IMG/VR virus record: IMGVR_UViG_3300036715_001203
Location: 1-20,826 of that record
Source of the DNA: a virus
DNA length: 20,826 nt
Reading direction: 5' to 3' (one strand)
Part shown: piece after piece, positions 3,252-19,478 of the stretch
How the letters are laid out: each line of letters starts with the position of its first letter
Position numbering within the stretch: position 1 is the first letter of the stretch
The notes under the pieces: model-generated
Seen by the model: only the letters and a program-made list of their open reading frames with translations
What the model was told of the DNA's origin: nothing
The model's database searches: none
Program-made: the position numbers and the translations under genes

Positions 3252-3323
3252 TGACCTTGGCACGAGCCTTACGGCCCACGAGATTTTAAGTCTCGCATGT
3301 GCTACCAATTTCATCACAAGGCC
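3252..3323 (-). tRNA. T-armless tRNA-Leu(UAA), probably non-functional
   Basis: A 72-nt sequence with a good acceptor stem (GGCCTTG/CAAGGTC, discriminator A), D arm, anticodon arm (CGAGA-CTTAAAA-TCTCG, anticodon UAA) and Leu-type long variable hairpin (GGGCC-GTAA-GGCTC). After the variable arm only GTGC separates it from the 3' acceptor strand, so the whole T arm is missing. Elongation factor binding needs the T arm in bacteria, so this is most likely a deletion derivative. The 63 bp between it and the next tRNA encodes a short frame (FGISYEEFCKRISKP, stop) that may be debris of another gene. Confidence 0.65.
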
Positions 3324-3463
3324 ATCCTTTTTTTCTTCCTGAATGTCGGCGTTTGACTGTGACAATTGGGACAAAGTATTTTCAGATTTTCCAATCTATT
3401 ATCGGTATTGTCGCCGTTTATGTGCTCCAACTCGAATATAATTTCTTTTCCCATCCATGTCAT
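3314..3463 (-). pseudogene. HNH endonuclease remnant (C-terminal half)
   Basis: A 49-codon frame starts with ATG inside a truncated tRNA anticodon arm and stops inside the 5' end of the next tRNA. It contains W-x-G-K, then FELEHINGDNTDNRLENL and CPNCHSQT at residues 31-38, which is the C-terminal HNH core (His14, Asn22/23 region, CxxCH) of a very common phage HNH family. The usual N-terminal helix-turn-helix and first zinc site are absent. The protein may still fold as a minimal HNH but is more likely a remnant left after recombination into the tRNA. Confidence 0.7.
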
Positions 3464-3544
3464 AGAAGTGCTCTGCCACTGAGCTAAAGAACCGCCGTCT
3501 TCGCCTTGTAAGGACGAGGTATTAAACCACTATACGACAGGGGC
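3450..3544 (-). pseudogene. chimera of two truncated tRNAs: Val(UAC) 5' part fused to Val(GAC)-like 5' part
   Basis: From 3544 leftward, GCCCCTG starts a good tRNA: D arm, then anticodon arm TCGTC-CTTACAA-GGCGA (UAC, Val) and the first bases of a T arm ending GGCGGTTC near 3489. Instead of the rest, the sequence becomes the start of another tRNA: GGTTCTT, then TAGCTCAGTGGCAGAGC (D arm), then CTTCT-ATGACAT (anticodon GAC). That second tRNA is broken in turn, because the 3' side of its anticodon stem is the beginning of the HNH frame. The shared GGTTC at the first junction suggests a deletion between short repeats. Confidence 0.65.
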
Positions 3545-3549
3545 ATTTG

Positions 3550-3588
3550 TGGGAGTTGACGGGCTCGAACCGCCGACCCTCTGCTTAT
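3550..3588 (-). pseudogene. tRNA 3' half
   Basis: AAGCAG (3' anticodon stem), AGGGTC (variable), GGCGG-TTCGAGC-CCGTC (complete T arm) and AACTCCC plus discriminator A form a perfect 3' half. The 5' half is absent, and the upstream bases are the last codons of a membrane-protein gene whose TAA stop lies at the edge of the anticodon loop. The 3' acceptor strand pairs perfectly, 7 of 7, with an isolated 5' half at 4516-4522. Confidence 0.7.
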
Positions 3589-3827
3589 TTCATAAGGTTC
3601 GTCAAGATAACACCAATGATTACCGAAATGACAGTAACAACAGCCATTGTTATTGTCGCAATTCTCGTTTCTCTGATTGTTTTCTTAAACCTCTCATCTT
3701 CTCTTTCCTTGTCTTCTTCTCTCATTTCCTTTTCTCGTTTCAAATCTTCTTCTCTTTCTCGTAATTCCCTTTTTAAATTCATCATGATTCTTTGTTCTTC
3801 AGGATTGGTTATATATGGTGCGTTCAT
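3585..3827 (-). CDS. small tail-anchored coiled-coil membrane protein
   Basis: An 80-aa protein. Residues about 10-50 are almost only Glu, Arg, Lys and Asp in a heptad-like pattern (a long charged helix or coiled coil). Residues about 56-78 (IATITMAVVTVISVIIGVIL) form one transmembrane helix at the very C-terminus, so it is probably anchored with the N-terminus in the cytoplasm. The function is unknown. The last codons merge with the tRNA 3' half at 3550-3588, which suggests the gene's 3' end was created or moved by recombination. The gene lies downstream of tRNA-Val(UAC) by 19 nt. Confidence 0.7.
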   Translation of the reverse strand: MNAPYITNPEEQRIMMNLKRELREREEDLKREKEMREEDKEREDERFKKTIRETRIATITMAVVTVISVIIGVILTNLMK

Positions 3828-3846
3828 ATTAATGAAAATTTATTTG

Positions 3847-3922
3847 TAGAAGTGACAGGATTCGAACCTGTGGTCTTCTGCTTGTAAGGCAGACGCTTTA
3901 AAACCAGCTAAGCGACACTCCC
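3847..3922 (-). tRNA. tRNA-Val(UAC)
   Basis: A 76-nt class I tRNA. Acceptor GGGAGTG/CACTTCT (two G-U pairs), discriminator A, no CCA. D arm GCTTAGCTGGTTTTAAAGC, anticodon arm TCTGC-CTTACAA-GCAGA (UAC), and a T arm with TTCGAAT loop and 5-bp stem (ACAGG/CCTGT). It looks complete. It starts 9 nt after the stop of the HNH gene. Confidence 0.9.
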
Positions 3923-3931
3923 ATTTGGCTG

Positions 3932-4453
3932 TTACCAGCCCTCTATCCCTGCATGTCGTACACGATGACAATTAGAACAAAGTAATACGCACTTATCCAA
4001 CTCTTCTTTAATTTTTTCCCAGCTCTGATATTTGATTCTCTCAAAATTCTCATCCTTGGTGGTCGGGTCCAGATGGTGAAAATCAAAGACTGCGTAATGA
4101 GTATCTTCCAACTTCAACTCACAATCCAGACATTCACCACCTTTGTAGTCAATCATTTTAAGTTTGACATTCTTAACCCTTTCCGTATGATATTGATTAC
4201 TACAATTTTTACAATAACCGCCGTAATCTTCTCTGTTGTATCTCTTATAAAAATCACCAAGTGGTTTAATGGTCTCACACTTCGGACAATATTTTTCAAC
4301 ATCATCTTTTTTGTTATACAGCTTCTTGATTGTTGCCAATTCAAGTTTCTTCAACCAGTACTTGATGTTCCCTTGAGACGTTTTAAGTTCGTTGGCCAGC
4401 TCTCGCTGCGATAGACCTTTTTCAATAAGTAATTCCAGTGTTTCTCGTTCCAT
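3932..4453 (-). CDS. HNH homing endonuclease with N-terminal HTH
   Basis: A 173-aa protein. Residues about 10-36 (LIEKGLSQRELANELKTSQ...) form a helix-turn-helix. A zinc ribbon follows with Cys pairs at 56/59 and 81/84. Cys 108/111, His-His at 126-127 (FDFHHLDP) and the C-terminal CSNCH at 159-163 form the HNH nuclease core, in which the first His is the likely general base. The architecture matches free-standing phage homing endonucleases. It lies between an orphan tRNA 5' half (4482-4522) and an intact tRNA-Val, and a tRNA 3' half follows further left, so it has probably taken part in disrupting tRNA genes. An ATATTTAT motif lies 14 nt before the ATG. Confidence 0.85.
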   Translation of the reverse strand: MERETLELLIEKGLSQRELANELKTSQGNIKYWLKKLELATIKKLYNKKDDVEKYCPKCETIKPLGDFYKRYNREDYGGYCKNCSNQYHTERVKNVKLKMIDYKGGECLDCELKLEDTHYAVFDFHHLDPTTKDENFERIKYQSWEKIKEELDKCVLLCSNCHRVRHAGIEGW

Positions 4454-4467
4454 TTATATGCTTTCAT

Positions 4468-4475
4468 ATAAATAT
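4468..4475 (-). promoter_or_regulatory. ATATTTAT motif, copy 3
   Basis: The minus strand reads GTGATATTTATATGA here, 14 nt before the HNH start and directly after the orphan tRNA 5' half. The promoter role is inferred from position. Confidence 0.4.
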
Positions 4476-4481
4476 CACTCA

Positions 4482-4522
4482 CTTTGAAAAAGGATGCTCT
4501 AAACCAACTGAGCTAAACTCCC
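4482..4522 (-). pseudogene. tRNA 5' half
   Basis: GGGAGTT (acceptor), TA, then GCTCAGTTGGTTTAGAGC (perfect D arm) and ATCCT-TTTTCAA read as the 5' half of a tRNA, broken just after the anticodon loop. If the stem is ATCCT, the anticodon would be UUC (Glu), but this cannot be confirmed without the other strand of the stem. The HNH gene's leader follows. Its acceptor strand complements the 3' half at 3551-3557, although the anticodon stems of the two halves do not match. Confidence 0.7.
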
Positions 4523-4529
4523 ACGTGTA

Positions 4530-4850
4530 TTAATGAAACTCATCGGCTTCAATAGCCTGCTGAATCCATCTTATCAACGTTGACCCCTTTATCTCCGGCT
4601 CAAATCTTGCTCCTTTGAGGTCATCCGTTAGCTTTATTGTATCCACATAGATTGAAGCTCCTTGTTCCTGCTCGATAAACTCGGCCTTGAACCTTGTCTT
4701 CTCTACTGTGTGAATAGGGAATGTGTAATTCTTTCCCAATGCAAATACCTGATAAATCAAATCACCGTTAGCTGGTTCATAATATAACAGCTTTGCATTT
4801 TCTTTGGACTTATATAAGTCCTTCTTGATTTCATTCTTGTCTACGCTCAT
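4530..4850 (-). CDS. hypothetical protein
   Basis: A 106-aa protein, unrecognised. It starts MSVDKNEIKKDLYKS and looks mixed alpha/beta, with no membrane segment. It overlaps the 3' end of the upstream gene by 20 nt and stops 7 nt before the orphan tRNA 5' half. It is part of a three-gene overlapping operon (4530-5321). Confidence 0.65.
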   Translation of the reverse strand: MSVDKNEIKKDLYKSKENAKLLYYEPANGDLIYQVFALGKNYTFPIHTVEKTRFKAEFIEQEQGASIYVDTIKLTDDLKGARFEPEIKGSTLIRWIQQAIEADEFH

Positions 4851-5338: not shown

Positions 5339-5366
5339 AGTCCCCAACTGGATTCGAACCAGTGAT
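5339..5366 (-). pseudogene. tRNA 3' half
   Basis: ACTGG-TTCGAAT-CCAGT is a perfect T arm, followed by TGGGGAC and discriminator T. Nothing upstream can form the anticodon arm; those bases are the last codons of the HNH gene (stop TAA at 5367-5369). The 3' acceptor strand pairs at 6 of 7 positions with the orphan 5' half at 6005-6011. Its 3' flank (GACTCTTAA) is shared with the intact tRNA-Cys at 5873. Confidence 0.7.
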
Positions 5367-5816
5367 TTATTTAACGTGTTCATACCACCAACCTAATTGT
5401 TTTGATGTTCGTATTCTATGATGATTAGCACATAGAACATCACACTTCTCAATTTCTTTTAGTATGCTATCCCAGTTATGATGATAAATCATTTGTGAGA
5501 TATTCAAAATTTTATCTTCTTGCTCTCTGTGGTCAAAATCTAAAACAATTGGATTTGATTCGTCGCAGACAATACAGTGATGCGTCTTAAAATATTCTAA
5601 TAGGTTCATACGATTCTCAGTCGTCTTAATTATTTTCCTATCGGTACTTCTCTTAACATACTCATCACGATACTTTTTATAGTGACCTTGTGGGTCTCTA
5701 TTATCCTTATAACATTCTTTACACTGCGAATGAAATTGATTTTTTAATTTCATTCGTATAAAAAAATCAGTTACATTTTTAACCTTACCGCATTTGCTAC
5801 ATTTTTTTGTTTCCAT
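5367..5816 (-). CDS. HNH homing endonuclease (zinc-ribbon type)
   Basis: A 149-aa protein starting METKKCSKCGK, a usual beginning for this phage family; an in-frame ATG 48 nt upstream is less likely because it would put the ATATTTAT motif inside the gene. Cys 6/9 and 32/35 form a zinc ribbon, Cys 81/84 a second knuckle, Asp-His at 95-96 (LDFDH) and CANHH at 129-133 the HNH core. The second Cys of the last knuckle is His, so zinc binding there may be weaker. It is bracketed by tRNA pieces: an intact tRNA-Cys upstream and a tRNA 3' half fused to its 3' end. Its overall plan resembles the other intact HNH in the window but without the HTH. Confidence 0.83.
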   Translation of the reverse strand: METKKCSKCGKVKNVTDFFIRMKLKNQFHSQCKECYKDNRDPQGHYKKYRDEYVKRSTDRKIIKTTENRMNLLEYFKTHHCIVCDESNPIVLDFDHREQEDKILNISQMIYHHNWDSILKEIEKCDVLCANHHRIRTSKQLGWWYEHVK

Positions 5817-5820
5817 GATA

Positions 5821-5828
5821 ATAAATAT
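5821..5828 (-). promoter_or_regulatory. ATATTTAT motif, copy 4
   Basis: The minus strand reads GATGATATTTATTATC here, only 4 nt before the chosen HNH ATG. At this spacing a promoter would give a nearly leaderless mRNA. The role is inferred. Confidence 0.35.
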
Positions 5829-5872
5829 CATCATGAACTGCAAAAAACGAATAAAGTTTTGCAATTATTAAG

Positions 5873-5961
5873 AGTCTACGGTCAGATTCGAACTGACAAG
5901 ATAGCTTTCGCTAAAAAAGGTTTTGCAGACCTTTGGTTTCAACCACTCACGCCACGTAGAC
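5873..5961 (-). tRNA. tRNA-Cys(GCA) with a long variable arm
   Basis: An 89-nt sequence with a perfect acceptor stem (GTCTACG/CGTAGAC) and discriminator U as in tRNA-Cys. Anticodon arm AAGGT-CTGCAAA-ACCTT gives GCA. The T arm GTCAG-TTCGAAT-CTGAC is perfect. Odd points: the variable region is about 18 nt with an AGC-GAAA-GCT hairpin, a class II feature not expected for Cys, and the D stem pairs poorly. It may be a Ser/Leu-type body carrying a Cys anticodon, or an eroded copy. Confidence 0.75.
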
Positions 5962-5971
5962 ATATTAAAGA

Positions 5972-6011
5972 ACTTGCAGACCGGCACCTTTGACCACTCA
6001 GCCATGGGGAT
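5972..6011 (-). pseudogene. tRNA-Cys-like 5' half
   Basis: ATCCCCA, TG, a D arm (GCTGAGTGGTCAAAGGT) and GCCGGT-CTGCAAG form the 5' half of a tRNA with a GCA anticodon. It stops after the anticodon loop, and the following bases do not supply ACCGGC. The acceptor strand matches the 3' half at 5340-5346 except for position 1 (A opposite C). Confidence 0.65.
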
Positions 6012-14186: not shown

Positions 14187-15260
14187 TTATTTTATACCAA
14201 CCTCTTCGTTCTGCTTAAGAAAGAAGTATAGACGTGCTACTTCAGATATTTTTGAATTCAAGTCTTTCGGCTCAAGCCCTGCTTCTGCTATGATGTCAGA
14301 CTCTTCTTTAATTACATCATTAATCACCAGTCTAACATAATCACCAAGACGTTTCCTATCAATTGTACCACCGTTTAATAAATCACAAGCCGCTGTTAAC
14401 GCTTGGTCCAAACGCCATGTTGGTGTAACCTTATTTACAACGCCAATTACCTTGTTTAGCTTCTCGTCATCAACCGGCTTAAGGGTTGTTACCTTGGATG
14501 CCTTACTGTGCTTCTCGCCCTTGGACTTGAAACGGTAAATTACACCGCCATCGGTTTCATGGGTGAATACAATACCTTCGCCAATGCCGATGAATCCAAA
14601 TTCCTTACCAACTGGGCATTCTTCTTCCACCTCAAGCGTCATTTCAATGAGCTTGTTTTGGATAGCCGCAGGATTGTTGAAGTCGATGTCGATGCTGAAC
14701 TTCTTGTAATCACGAATATTGAAAACCCTTTTCTCTGGGTCTCTCAAGTAATCGAAACCTACCCAGTATGCCGGAGTCTTGTCTTCCTCATCCTTAAGGA
14801 ATGGGGATATCTTAACGCCAATAATAAACATTGACTTATCAATATTTGAAATGGCTACACCCTTTTGAATACCCTTACCTACCCACTCAGCATAGATTGA
14901 AATGGTGTTCTTTTCCATGTCAAGGTTATTTGTTATCATAACCTTTGCAAACAAATCAAGGAATGTTTCCCTGTTTGATTCAACAAAAAATGCTGAGCCA
15001 GCGTTATCGCTTTGTGGCGTAATAATGTTTTCTCTGGATTGTACCCACAGGCTATCGATGGCATTGTAGCATACACCAAAGTTTGTACCATGCAACTTCA
15101 CGGTACCCTCGAAGGTAAGAACCGGCTTCGGCTTACCAATGTCGTAGATTGCTTCCCCTTCTTCATCCAAACCAACAAAGTTGTGTGTACGATTAACGTG
15201 TGCAACAATGTTTCTGAATTGTTCAATACTTGGAAATGCGATGTGTTTCTTGTATCCCAT
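14187..15260 (-). CDS. Rnl2-type RNA ligase
   Basis: A 357-aa protein with all nucleotidyltransferase motifs: I KLHGTN with Lys55 as the AMP-accepting residue, Ia SREN (75-78), III SIYAEWVGKG (121-130), IV GEGIVF (227-232) and V RFKSKG with Lys245/Lys247. The H-G-T-N after the Lys marks the Rnl2 branch, which seals nicks in double-stranded RNA by joining 3'-OH to 5'-phosphate. The C-terminal 100 residues are a helical domain, as in T4 Rnl2. Its gene lies 5 nt from the start of the frameshifted small gene. A second RNA ligase of the Rnl1 type is at 18360-19478. Confidence 0.9.
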   Translation of the reverse strand: MGYKKHIAFPSIEQFRNIVAHVNRTHNFVGLDEEGEAIYDIGKPKPVLTFEGTVKLHGTNFGVCYNAIDSLWVQSRENIITPQSDNAGSAFFVESNRETFLDLFAKVMITNNLDMEKNTISIYAEWVGKGIQKGVAISNIDKSMFIIGVKISPFLKDEEDKTPAYWVGFDYLRDPEKRVFNIRDYKKFSIDIDFNNPAAIQNKLIEMTLEVEEECPVGKEFGFIGIGEGIVFTHETDGGVIYRFKSKGEKHSKASKVTTLKPVDDEKLNKVIGVVNKVTPTWRLDQALTAACDLLNGGTIDRKRLGDYVRLVINDVIKEESDIIAEAGLEPKDLNSKISEVARLYFFLKQNEEVGIK

Positions 15261-15474: not shown

Positions 15475-15680
15475 TTTACTTCCCCAAGTTTTTTTCGAAG
15501 TTCACGAATAATAAAAATATCTGCATATGCCCCACCCATAAACCATGCAAACATGCCCATCATAGCATCTGACTCACGGTCAGGTACTTTCATGAAATAT
15601 AATAATATTCTGAAGCCAATGGCCCAGAGTGCCCCGTAAACACCGGCAACTATTCTTTATTTCCAAGTTAGTCTGGTCAT
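15471..15680 (-). pseudogene. small two-helix membrane protein gene with an in-frame TAA at codon 8
   Basis: The frame starts with an ATG that overlaps the DNA ligase stop (TAATG) and ends in a TGA that overlaps the next ATG (ATGA), an ideal operon fit of 70 codons. It reads MTRLTWK, then TAA, then RIVAGVYGALWAIGFRILLY as a first membrane helix, a polar link (MKVPDRESD), a second helix (AMMGMFAWFMGGAYADIFII) and a basic tail. The TAA at codon 8 would stop synthesis. Possible explanations are a nonsense mutation, read-through, restart at an inner Met, or a base error. Confidence 0.6.
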
Positions 15681-17083
15681 TAGCTTAATCCTTTTATCAT
15701 GTTTTCGTTAGCAATGATGTCTTCCAGTGTATCCGTCTCAGTCTTCTCACCCTTCCTCAGTCCTTTGTAAACTGGGTGAAGCAATGAATACTGGCCCTTG
15801 CTGTCTTTTGATAGACCGCTGCACTTTACAGCAACGATTACACCCAGAAGGTCAGCTTGGTTATCGGTGATGTACTTCATGGTTGCTTCGTCGATACCTG
15901 TAGGGCTTGTTACAACCTTACCATCGGCAGATTCAGCATTCAATGAGGAAATCAGTGCGGCATTCTTGCCGGTGCCCAGATTGAAGCCTGTAATCTTCAG
16001 GTCAACGTCCATTTCCAGCTTCATCTTCACCTGCCAGTTGGGTTTGCCGTCCTTCCATGTACCAGCGTATGACTTCAGGATGGTTCCTTCAAAACCTTTG
16101 TTCAAAACTTCCTGAAAATGCGCTATCGCTTCTTCATATGACTTAACCATTCTTGTTTCCACAATCTGAACCATAGTTGGTTCCATTGTTGCAATAAGTT
16201 CTTGCAAGTTTGTTTCAAAACGCACGTTATACGGAGTCTTTGATTTTGTTTCAAAGTACTCATCAACGCTGATGGTATCCCAAACGGTATATTTTATTGA
16301 ATCCAAAGCTGCTTGGTATTCAACGTTGTGCTTTTTCTTCAGCTTGGCTATCTCCGGCGCAATATCCTTTCCTTCCAGCTTCTTATCACCGATGCTTACC
16401 AGTGATGCAATGATACCATTGCTTTCGTAACGTGACAGGCCATCGATGGTGAATTCACCGTTCAATACGCAGTCAGGAAACCCTTTCAATTCCTCAAGGA
16501 ACTTTGCACCTTCCAGCATGGTAACTTCACCCTGACGGCTTTCCAATTCAACATCACCACCACGGATGATAGCATTTGAATAGCGGCCATCCATCTTTAT
16601 CTGGCTGTAATGGTAAGGGTTGTTATTTACTTGGAAGATGGCTTGAGCCAATTTAGGTTCGAATGCCTTTGCTCCCATGTATGGGGTCTTTTCAATAAGA
16701 CCTGCGAATATCTTGTTCATATTGGTAGTACCCATACCAATCTTGCAATCCTTTTCGATGATGCGCTCGATAATGTAAGCGTCATCAACACTTGAATATT
16801 CAAGTACCCTTGATAGGTGGGTTATTGCCGCATGACCAGTAACTTCACGGTCACTCAACTTCTTCAATGATTTGATGTTATGGTCAAGCATTGCATATGT
16901 ATCGCCCAATTCGCTTGGCTTATATGCAGGTATTTGCTTGATATAAAACTTCACTCGCTTGGAGTTAGCCAGATACAGGACCTCTCTCAAGAGTTCGTTA
17001 TCCTTGTACTTGCCAAGAATTTCCATTTTCTTGTTTGTTCCCGGCTCAGCGGCGATTTCATCAAAGATTTTCTTTACTGACAT
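15680..17083 (-). CDS. ATP-dependent DNA ligase (T4 gp30-like)
   Basis: A 467-aa protein, close in length to T4 DNA ligase. Motif I is KMDGRYSN with Lys163 as the adenylated residue; Ia is SRQGE (Arg183); III is VLNGEFTI (206-213); IV is GFEGTILK (330-337); V is QVKMKLE with Lys353/Lys355. The N-terminal 150 residues are the helical DNA-binding region and the last 110 the OB fold. It seals nicks during phage replication, recombination and repair. It overlaps the upstream gene by 23 nt and its stop overlaps the next start (TAATG). Confidence 0.93.
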   Translation of the reverse strand: MSVKKIFDEIAAEPGTNKKMEILGKYKDNELLREVLYLANSKRVKFYIKQIPAYKPSELGDTYAMLDHNIKSLKKLSDREVTGHAAITHLSRVLEYSSVDDAYIIERIIEKDCKIGMGTTNMNKIFAGLIEKTPYMGAKAFEPKLAQAIFQVNNNPYHYSQIKMDGRYSNAIIRGGDVELESRQGEVTMLEGAKFLEELKGFPDCVLNGEFTIDGLSRYESNGIIASLVSIGDKKLEGKDIAPEIAKLKKKHNVEYQAALDSIKYTVWDTISVDEYFETKSKTPYNVRFETNLQELIATMEPTMVQIVETRMVKSYEEAIAHFQEVLNKGFEGTILKSYAGTWKDGKPNWQVKMKLEMDVDLKITGFNLGTGKNAALISSLNAESADGKVVTSPTGIDEATMKYITDNQADLLGVIVAVKCSGLSKDSKGQYSLLHPVYKGLRKGEKTETDTLEDIIANENMIKGLS

Positions 17084-18359: not shown

Positions 18360-19478
18360 TTACAATAGCTTATAAAGAACCTTGTCGTCGTAATCCTTCA
18401 TGTAATCTTCAACTGATGTAGCCTTACCAAGTTGCAAGTTGAAAAACAAACCGGAGAACCCCTTAAGATTGTACTTCTCTACCACTGCAAATACCGCTGT
18501 TGCATACTTCTTTCTCTCTGGCGCTGAAATGTTCTTAGGCAACTCAGGCTGTAATTCGTTCCACACATTGTTGAGGTTTCCCACCAACTTGTCGTATGCA
18601 GTCTTCAGTCTCAACAGTTCTTCCTTACGGTCTGGGAATGTTGCAGCGAACTCTTCAATCTCGTTGGTCTTTATGATTGTAAGAATATTATGCTCAGCTG
18701 TCTTACCCTTCAAGTGGTGAACTGCACAGTATGCTGGGTTCTTTATCTTCACACGGTTAAAGTTCTTGTCACAAACAACATAGCCTTCTTCAGACCATGC
18801 CATGTTCTCAAGAGTCTTATGAATATCGTTAACACCCATGCTCTTGAAATCGAAAGTCTTAACTACTGGTACCTTGATGATTTCTGACTCCTTCAACAAC
18901 TCAGTATATGTCTTCTCTACCAGAGTCTTGTTGTTTCTAACCGCCAACAGTGTTATTTCAGATACGCCATGTGGCTTTACCACGATGTTGTATGGTGATG
19001 TCAATTCGAACACGTATGTGAACTTCTTATTCAGCAAGTCAACGATGTTATAGTCGTACTTTAAGGTTGTCTGCCAGAATAAGTCATTGAAGGTTGTACC
19101 CATCTTGTTATTCACTTCACCCTCACCTTCAGCAGTACCTGTAGTAGCTGCGAACCACTTGTAAGCATATTCATCCCAGTAAACCTGCATCATTGAACCA
19201 TCCAACTTTTCGTAGATGATTGCTGAATCCCAGTCAATCTTATGAGCATGACCTTCCTGTATGTTGAAGAACTTACGGAATGACATGGACATAACGTCCC
19301 ATGAATTCTTATGCAAGATAAGACCACGGCAATCCTGAACTTCTTGGTGCTCATATGAAGAGTTGATTTGGTCATACTTCAAATGAACCTTATGCTCATA
19401 GACACGAGACTTCAATTTGAACTTTTCAACTGTTTCAGTTAAACCGAACTCCTTGATATGTCTGATTACCGCTAACAT
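18360..19478 (-). CDS. Rnl1-type RNA ligase
   Basis: A 372-aa protein, the length of T4 RNA ligase 1 (374). Before the active site CRGLILHK and FRKFFNIQEG match the Rnl1 CRG...KFFNxxE block. Motif I is EKLDGS with Lys91 adenylated; III is YVFELTSPYN (155-164); IV is EEGYVV (230-235); V is VKIKNPAY with Lys244/Lys246. Rnl1 seals breaks in single-stranded RNA, in T4 the anticodon loop cut by PrrC. A C-terminal helical domain follows. The gene ends beside an HNH remnant and a terminator and is preceded by the Lys-rich-tail gene, 10 nt away. Confidence 0.9.
   Translation of the reverse strand: MLAVIRHIKEFGLTETVEKFKLKSRVYEHKVHLKYDQINSSYEHQEVQDCRGLILHKNSWDVMSMSFRKFFNIQEGHAHKIDWDSAIIYEKLDGSMMQVYWDEYAYKWFAATTGTAEGEGEVNNKMGTTFNDLFWQTTLKYDYNIVDLLNKKFTYVFELTSPYNIVVKPHGVSEITLLAVRNNKTLVEKTYTELLKESEIIKVPVVKTFDFKSMGVNDIHKTLENMAWSEEGYVVCDKNFNRVKIKNPAYCAVHHLKGKTAEHNILTIIKTNEIEEFAATFPDRKEELLRLKTAYDKLVGNLNNVWNELQPELPKNISAPERKKYATAVFAVVEKYNLKGFSGLFFNLQLGKATSVEDYMKDYDDKVLYKLL

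Follow-up and report, generated by a model that had tools for sequence, protein, structure and literature searches.

The interrupted tRNA-Val gene

The window, a 20.8-kb fragment of a virus record, carries on its minus strand the two parts of an interrupted tRNA-Val(UAC) gene. The 5' part (4493-4522, tRNA positions 1-28, GGGAGTTTAGCTCAGTTGGTTTAGAGCATC) and the 3' part (3550-3584, tRNA positions 39-73, a 35-mer with one N) are separated by a gene for an HNH endonuclease, an intact tRNA-Val(UAC) gene and an open reading frame (ORF) with a membrane segment. The acceptor strands of the two parts, GGGAGTT and AACTCCC, pair at seven of seven positions. The original prediction of tRNA halves with complementary 7-nt acceptors that bracket an HNH gene, a whole tRNA-Val and a membrane-protein gene is borne out, with every element present on the minus strand. 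A second record, IMGVR_UViG_3300035180_001073, is 99.98% identical to the window and adds a further 16.5 kb of tRNA array with about 19 more tRNAs. The order of elements around the split tRNA-Val is the same there, which argues that the arrangement is not a one-off misassembly.

The 3' part was used as a 35-nt pattern with one free base to scan bacterial genomes. Matches were found in at least 117 genome stretches, nearly all from Bacteroidota and chiefly from Chitinophagaceae, and the intact versions of the split gene are standard tRNA-Val genes of these bacteria. Among the matches listed, GGGAGTTTAGCTCAG is present in 111 of 126 aligned copies of the 3' part, and in 14 aligned host tRNA-Val genes the first 30 nt are identical to the 5' part in the window. 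The complete host gene is a tRNA-Val(UAC) that reads GGGAGTTTAGCTCAGTTGGTTTAGAGCATC - TGCCTTACAA - GCAGAGGGTCGGCGGTTCGANCCCGTCAACTCCCA, such that the window lacks only the middle 10 nt, TGCCTTACAA. Judged solely by this host-like type of tRNA-Val, Bacteroidota may be the hosts of the phage.

Comparison with the host gene places the true break of the 5' part after position 28 (GAGCATC). The 5' half had been thought to reach 4482, which is about 11 nt too late, given that the additional "CTTTTTCAAAGTGAG" belongs to the leader of the HNH gene, as seen from the homologous leader in the related record L234 (ACTTTTTTCAAAAGTGAG). For the same reason, the comparison of anticodon stems (ATCCT against AAGCAG) that had argued against a single split tRNA is not valid: 10 nt are missing, and the "ATCCTTTTTCAAAG" end is HNH leader. 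The apparent mismatch is explained by the loss of TGCCTTACAA together with the leader sequence, rather than by two different tRNAs. The tail of the 5' piece could also be read as an anticodon loop, which would give UCA or UUC as the anticodon; the same L234 homology led to the rejection of this reading.

Orphan 3' halves of tRNA-Val(UAC) occur among the bacterial stretches (L021, L031, L035, L052, L053, L054, L069, L076, L092, L093, L104 and L125), and these probably mark attachment sites used by integrative elements of Chitinophagaceae and related bacteria. The 3' part in the window could similarly be the attachment-site remnant of an integrative element that used the host tRNA-Val(UAC), with the 5' part a product of unrelated decay. 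The presence in about 12 host genomes of orphan halves that run from the anticodon loop on, the pattern expected of an integrase site, fits this idea. However, the host orphans retain CTTACAAG, which is lost in the window, and none of the window ORFs was recognised as an integrase. The 5' part, in addition, has its break at the complementary point and occupies the syntenic tRNA-Val slot. An origin as an attachment site is therefore improbable.

Archaeal split tRNAs consist of two complete halves that are broken at the anticodon and joined in trans. The phage halves are likewise broken at the anticodon, their acceptors pair perfectly, and three phage ligase genes, one for a DNA ligase and one each for an Rnl1-like and an Rnl2-like RNA ligase, lie in a cluster on the minus strand (14187-15260, 15680-17083 and 18360-19478). 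Separate transcription of the halves, followed by joining by the phage RNA ligases, is nonetheless very unlikely. Unlike the archaeal halves, the phage halves lack the anticodon; it and most of the anticodon stem are in neither half. A functional split tRNA was rejected on the ground that a complete anticodon arm is not encoded, with 10 nt that include the anticodon absent. In addition, the 3' anticodon strand is missing from the halves of a second split gene in the window, a tRNA-Cys described below; the phage already has an intact tRNA-Val(UAC); and the repair of cut tRNAs is a normal task of phage RNA ligases.

Synteny shows where the interrupted gene belongs. ORF106 (4530-4850, minus strand), next to the 5' part, has homologues by tblastn in L158 (42% identity), L234 (45%) and L006 and L007 (32-33%), and in all four the gene after ORF106 is an intact tRNA-Val(UAC). 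The L158 gene is of the same host-like type (GGGGATGTAGCTCAGTTGGTTTAGAGC). L005 has no significant match to ORF106, yet a tRNA-Val(UAC) lies at the corresponding place. In the window, the slot next to ORF106 is occupied by the 5' half of the split tRNA-Val. Thus, the HNH gene sits at a site that is uninterrupted in L158, L234, L006 and L007, and this site may be the target of the enzyme.

Acceptor pairing was also compared across seven split cases, in which the true partners rank at the top of all 5040 permutations. Acceptor pairing is 6.3 pairs for matching halves versus 2.6 for mismatched halves, and the joined halves are called as a tRNA by ARAGORN in 28% of matching joinings versus 0.9% of mismatched ones. 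The host-gene matches, the acceptor permutation and the synteny together rule out halves from different tRNAs, and they are strong evidence that both halves derive from one tRNA-Val(UAC) gene. It had been proposed that relatives with each half in a different tRNA at a different ancestral position would refute the insertion; the relatives showed the opposite, one intact tRNA-Val(UAC).

An alternative is that two host-like tRNA-Val copies once flanked the segment with the HNH gene, tRNA-Val and membrane ORF, and that independent truncations removed the 3' part of one and the 5' part of the other. Duplicate isoacceptors are common in such arrays, and this array holds other truncations and a deletion fusion (3544-3455); the chance that two truncations would fall within 10 nt of each other without overlap is roughly estimated at one in eight. 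On the other hand, the pieces meet at the anticodon arm without overlap, the arrangement recurs in other phages with acceptors that match within each case, and none of the relatives seen has two complete flanking copies. Two truncated copies are thus an unlikely source of the arrangement, and interruption of a single tRNA-Val gene is preferred.

Contents of the interruption

The HNH leader (4454-4492, minus strand) directly follows the 5' part of the tRNA. It is homologous to the L234 leader and is not tRNA sequence, and it can form a hairpin, ATTTATATG-AAAG-CATATAAAT, over the start region, with a fold of -8.9 kcal/mol (z -5.2). The HNH gene itself (3932-4453, minus strand) encodes 173 aa and matches the HNH family phrog_2255 in PHROG (E=1e-34), with an N-terminal helix-turn-helix-like region suggested by weak Pfam matches. 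A 62% identical relative is present at the same locus in L234, on a 362-kb contig with 45 tRNA matches, suggesting that the window is probably part of a giant phage. A PDB profile search gave no useful match.

The intact tRNA-Val(UAC) (3847-3922, minus strand) is called by ARAGORN and scores 68.1 bits with Rfam. It is of the same type as the tRNA-Val of L006 and L007 and differs from the interrupted, host-type one. It is the sole intact tRNA with a UAC anticodon seen in the known 37 kb of the phage, and as such is a candidate replacement for the broken gene. The 17-nt anticodon arm is identical between the enclosed and host-type tRNA-Val, with flanks that differ; given the identical arms, resistance of the enclosed gene to cleavage is not evident.

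The last gene of the interruption, ORF80 (3585-3827, minus strand), encodes 80 aa with a charged, coiled-coil-like region and one membrane segment. Its stop codon lies within the remnant of the tRNA anticodon loop. Neither the phage collection nor the 11 related records yielded a relative of ORF80.

The anticodon loop of tRNAs is a classical site for introns, and introns can hold HNH genes. A group I or group II intron, or another spliced insertion that carries the HNH gene, would therefore suit the position of the break. No intron family was matched in the window by Rfam at E up to 1, and the intron reading was rejected on that basis. Moreover, in the insertions that carry the second family of HNH genes, of 151 aa, ORFs take up the space that a ribozyme core would need; the junctions lack 10 nt of the tRNA; and the insertion in tRNA-Val contains another tRNA and an ORF. 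A spliced insertion is accordingly hard to credit.

Other interrupted tRNA genes

A second interrupted gene, for tRNA-Cys(GCA), is found in the same array, again on the minus strand. The 5' part (5974-6011, tRNA positions 1-38) is followed by an intact tRNA-Cys(GCA) (5872-5961), a 151-aa HNH gene (5367-5822, phrog_2255, E=1.4e-31) and the 3' part, which comprises the T-arm and acceptor (5339-5363). The 3' part starts 4 nt past the HNH stop, its acceptor pairs at six of seven positions with 6011-6005, and the 3' anticodon strand is absent from the two halves. Relatives of the 151-aa HNH protein occur at split tRNAs in L140, L158 and others, and the cultured Streptomyces phages Sham and JimJam also encode relatives.

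A third gene, for tRNA-Val(GAC), is represented by a 5' part (3455-3493, minus strand) that is broken just past the anticodon loop and has intact relatives in L005-L007. Next to it is a 49-aa C-terminal remnant of a third kind of HNH endonuclease (3314-3463, minus strand). This remnant is near-identical to the C-terminus of an HNH gene in L140 (4807-5277, phrog_10822) that is itself behind a broken tRNA, in that case for Leu. In L140 (4733-5342), the tRNA-Leu 5' half and the phrog_10822 HNH gene are followed by an intact tRNA-Leu(UAA) that overlaps the HNH stop. Adjacent to the third case in the window, a tRNA-Val(UAC) truncated in the T-loop (3489-3544, minus strand) is fused by deletion to the next tRNA via a shared GGTTC; the counterparts of the fused tRNA-Val(UAC) and tRNA-Val(GAC) genes are intact and abutting in L005.

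Database loci add five HNH-split tRNAs (Cys, Cys, Phe, Asn and Val) and one tentative case (Arg). In L140, where the HNH gene is 65% identical, the order is 5' half, intact tRNA-Cys, HNH gene and 3' half, as in the Cys case of the window, and the two cases are probably not independent. The tail of the L140 5' half, CTGCAAAATAAAT, recurs at the start of the HNH leader, CTGCAAATAAATTTTG, when read by eye, as if a short duplication had accompanied the insertion of the intact tRNA-Cys. L158 has a tRNA-Cys 5' half, an HNH gene and a 3' half with nothing enclosed, and acceptors that pair at seven of seven positions. In L162 the anticodon loop of a split tRNA-Phe, also without an enclosed tRNA, contains the start codon of the HNH gene, and the acceptors (CCTCTGG and CCAGAGG) again pair at seven of seven. 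The split tRNAs of L229 (Asn) and L177 (Val) each enclose a tRNA of the same anticodon, the one in L177 being atypical. The L178 (Arg) case is tentative because the 5' half lies about 340 nt upstream. Across the cases the HNH gene may come before or after the enclosed tRNA, and the displaced native 3' part is found downstream of the HNH gene or of ORF80. As a further observation on L177, the region at about 2337-2500 holds a tRNA-like gene and a half, with C33 instead of U and a T-loop without TTC, that were missed by ARAGORN.

Broken and enclosed tRNAs share their anticodon in each of the four clear cases with an enclosed tRNA (the tRNA-Val described above, the Cys case of the window, L140 Cys and L229 Asn) and in two weaker ones (L177 Val and the tentative L178 Arg). 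For comparison, array neighbours share an anticodon in 8.7% of cases and an amino acid in 25.5%, a partial clustering by isotype. Where an HNH gene is flanked on each side by an intact tRNA, shared anticodons are not significantly in excess (4 of 29, p=0.24). Given that other HNH-split tRNAs enclose the same anticodon, the enclosed tRNA-Val is probably not an incidental passenger. The earlier suggestion that an endonuclease gene entered a tRNA, with rearrangement thereafter, stands insofar as a single tRNA-Val(UAC) was interrupted that is intact in relatives; it changes in two respects, as the stem mismatch does not come from two tRNAs and the enclosed tRNA-Val is probably more than a by-product.

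Anticodon-loop copies in the HNH leaders

Short leaders in the 151-aa HNH family often hold the reverse complement of the anticodon loop of a flanking tRNA. Such copies include ATTAAAAGT against ACTTTTAAT in L205 (Lys), TCCCAAA in Streptomyces phage Sham (Pro) and TTTTGCAG in the window, L140 and L158 (Cys). The summed longest matches for the family are 193, versus 146 +/- 5.5 with random anticodon loops, and matches of at least 7 nt are found at 11 of 34 loci, versus 0.9 expected. The leaders of the 173-aa HNH branch, to which the gene in tRNA-Val belongs, give sums of 93 versus 83 +/- 3.7 and no inverted match of at least 7 nt, which is unconvincing. With no clear leader copy in its branch, the 173-aa HNH protein may not target tRNA-Val.

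For homing endonucleases of T4, a copy of the homing site serves as an operator (PMC2988022). On that precedent, it is proposed that the leader copies mark the target specificity of the HNH proteins and contribute to autoregulation. A parallel is I-TevI, which has a copy of its homing site at its own promoter as an operator (PMC2988022), much like the inverted anticodon-loop copies in the leaders. However, I-TevI is intron-encoded and its operator has been tested, whereas the operator role of the phage leader copies is proposed from sequence statistics. The leader copies would predict the target of each enzyme.

Proposed mechanism and comparison with known systems

It is a long-standing observation that phage tRNA clusters are crowded with endonuclease genes, usually as neighbours of the tRNA genes. 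The split tRNAs in unrelated phages suggest that selfish endonucleases may instead break tRNA genes while bringing a spare. For the window, the most probable account is that a host-type tRNA-Val(UAC) was interrupted by a segment with an HNH gene, an intact tRNA-Val(UAC) and a membrane ORF, as one instance of a recurrent homing element. The segment would have entered the anticodon arm of the tRNA-Val(UAC) gene with the loss of 10 nt. The broken tRNA would then be dead, with decoding presumably supplied by the enclosed tRNA-Val(UAC) in a rescue role. More generally, the HNH gene would insert at a tRNA anticodon loop in a segment that usually brings a tRNA of the same anticodon. The HNH protein is predicted to cut the tRNA gene, and the 173-aa protein may have broken the tRNA-Val. 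Spread could occur when phages co-infect a cell, through a double-strand break and recombination in which the homology arms include the flanking tRNA halves.

A broader and more tentative possibility is that these are natural cut-and-replace elements, each with an HNH enzyme specific for an anticodon loop, a replacement tRNA of the same anticodon and control by an inverted copy of the target in the leader. If so, such elements would solve the problem of insertion into a conserved site in the absence of an intron or intein, and would offer a selfish gene a way to reside in a conserved RNA gene with no need of splicing. They would also help to explain the gain, duplication and swapping of tRNA genes in large phages, as well as the broken tRNAs that litter the arrays. 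The open-access papers searched contained no account of an HNH gene inserted at a tRNA anticodon loop together with an enclosed same-anticodon tRNA.

The nearest described logic is that of the WHO elements and the mitochondrial mobile ORFs. In Torulaspora and Lachancea yeasts, FBA1 is the homing site of WHO elements, which put a new 3' end in place of its own (PMC7282813). The endonuclease gene thereby enters a conserved gene and supplies a substitute for the displaced part without splicing (PMC7282813), as is proposed for the phage loci. Unlike WHO, where the chimeric FBA1 works, the phage loci carry the putative replacement as a whole tRNA gene of its own, and their enzyme is an HNH protein of the phage; the replacement is not fused to the native 5' part, which is left over as a half. 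Mobile ORFs of Glomus and Allomyces mitochondria bring a new C-terminus (PMC3630166). They too combine an endonuclease ORF with a foreign copy of the gene end, and the native end is displaced downstream, but they act on protein genes, with a fused replacement and LAGLIDADG or GIY-YIG enzymes.

The nearest setting is that of SegB, a homing endonuclease resident in the tRNA region of T4 and T6 (PMC2988022) that helps to spread and amplify tRNA genes (PMC13096335) and for which hairpin-controlled expression has been described (PMC2988022, PMC13096335). SegB resembles the HNH proteins in its residence in a phage tRNA cluster. It differs in that it is a GIY-YIG enzyme whose gene lies between tRNA genes rather than within one, and for which no broken target with a same-anticodon replacement has been described; neither HNH gene of the interrupted tRNA-Val and tRNA-Cys encodes a GIY-YIG domain, both being phrog_2255 HNH genes. 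Synthetic Cleave-and-Rescue drives similarly link a gene-disrupting nuclease to a functional copy of the gene, but these are engineered constructs whose rescue copy has been recoded to withstand cleavage (PMC7951863).

Other features of the tRNA array

Further truncated or mobile genes lie in and around the array, all on the minus strand. A tRNA-Leu(UAA) (3323-3250) has normal acceptor, D and anticodon arms and no T-arm, and its 3' end runs into an ORF tail (VTKLLFGISYEEFCKRISKP). A C-terminal remnant that resembles an IS605-type TnpB (2470-2270) lies inside the tRNA array. A SegE-like GIY-YIG homing endonuclease gene (1006-1647, phrog_314) is found at the array end, and its start bears an inverted repeat, ATATTTA...TAAATAT. 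An IS1595-type transposase fragment at the extreme end of the contig (20348-20734) is possibly a contig-end chimera or a true phage insertion. HNH genes in such arrays very often end on the conserved T8-A9-G10 of the next tRNA, or on a TAA at that place, such that the stop codon is inside the next tRNA gene. This arrangement is found in L161, L179, L191, L205, L217, L222, L223, L225 and L250, and in the phages JimJam, Hena1 and KIL4.
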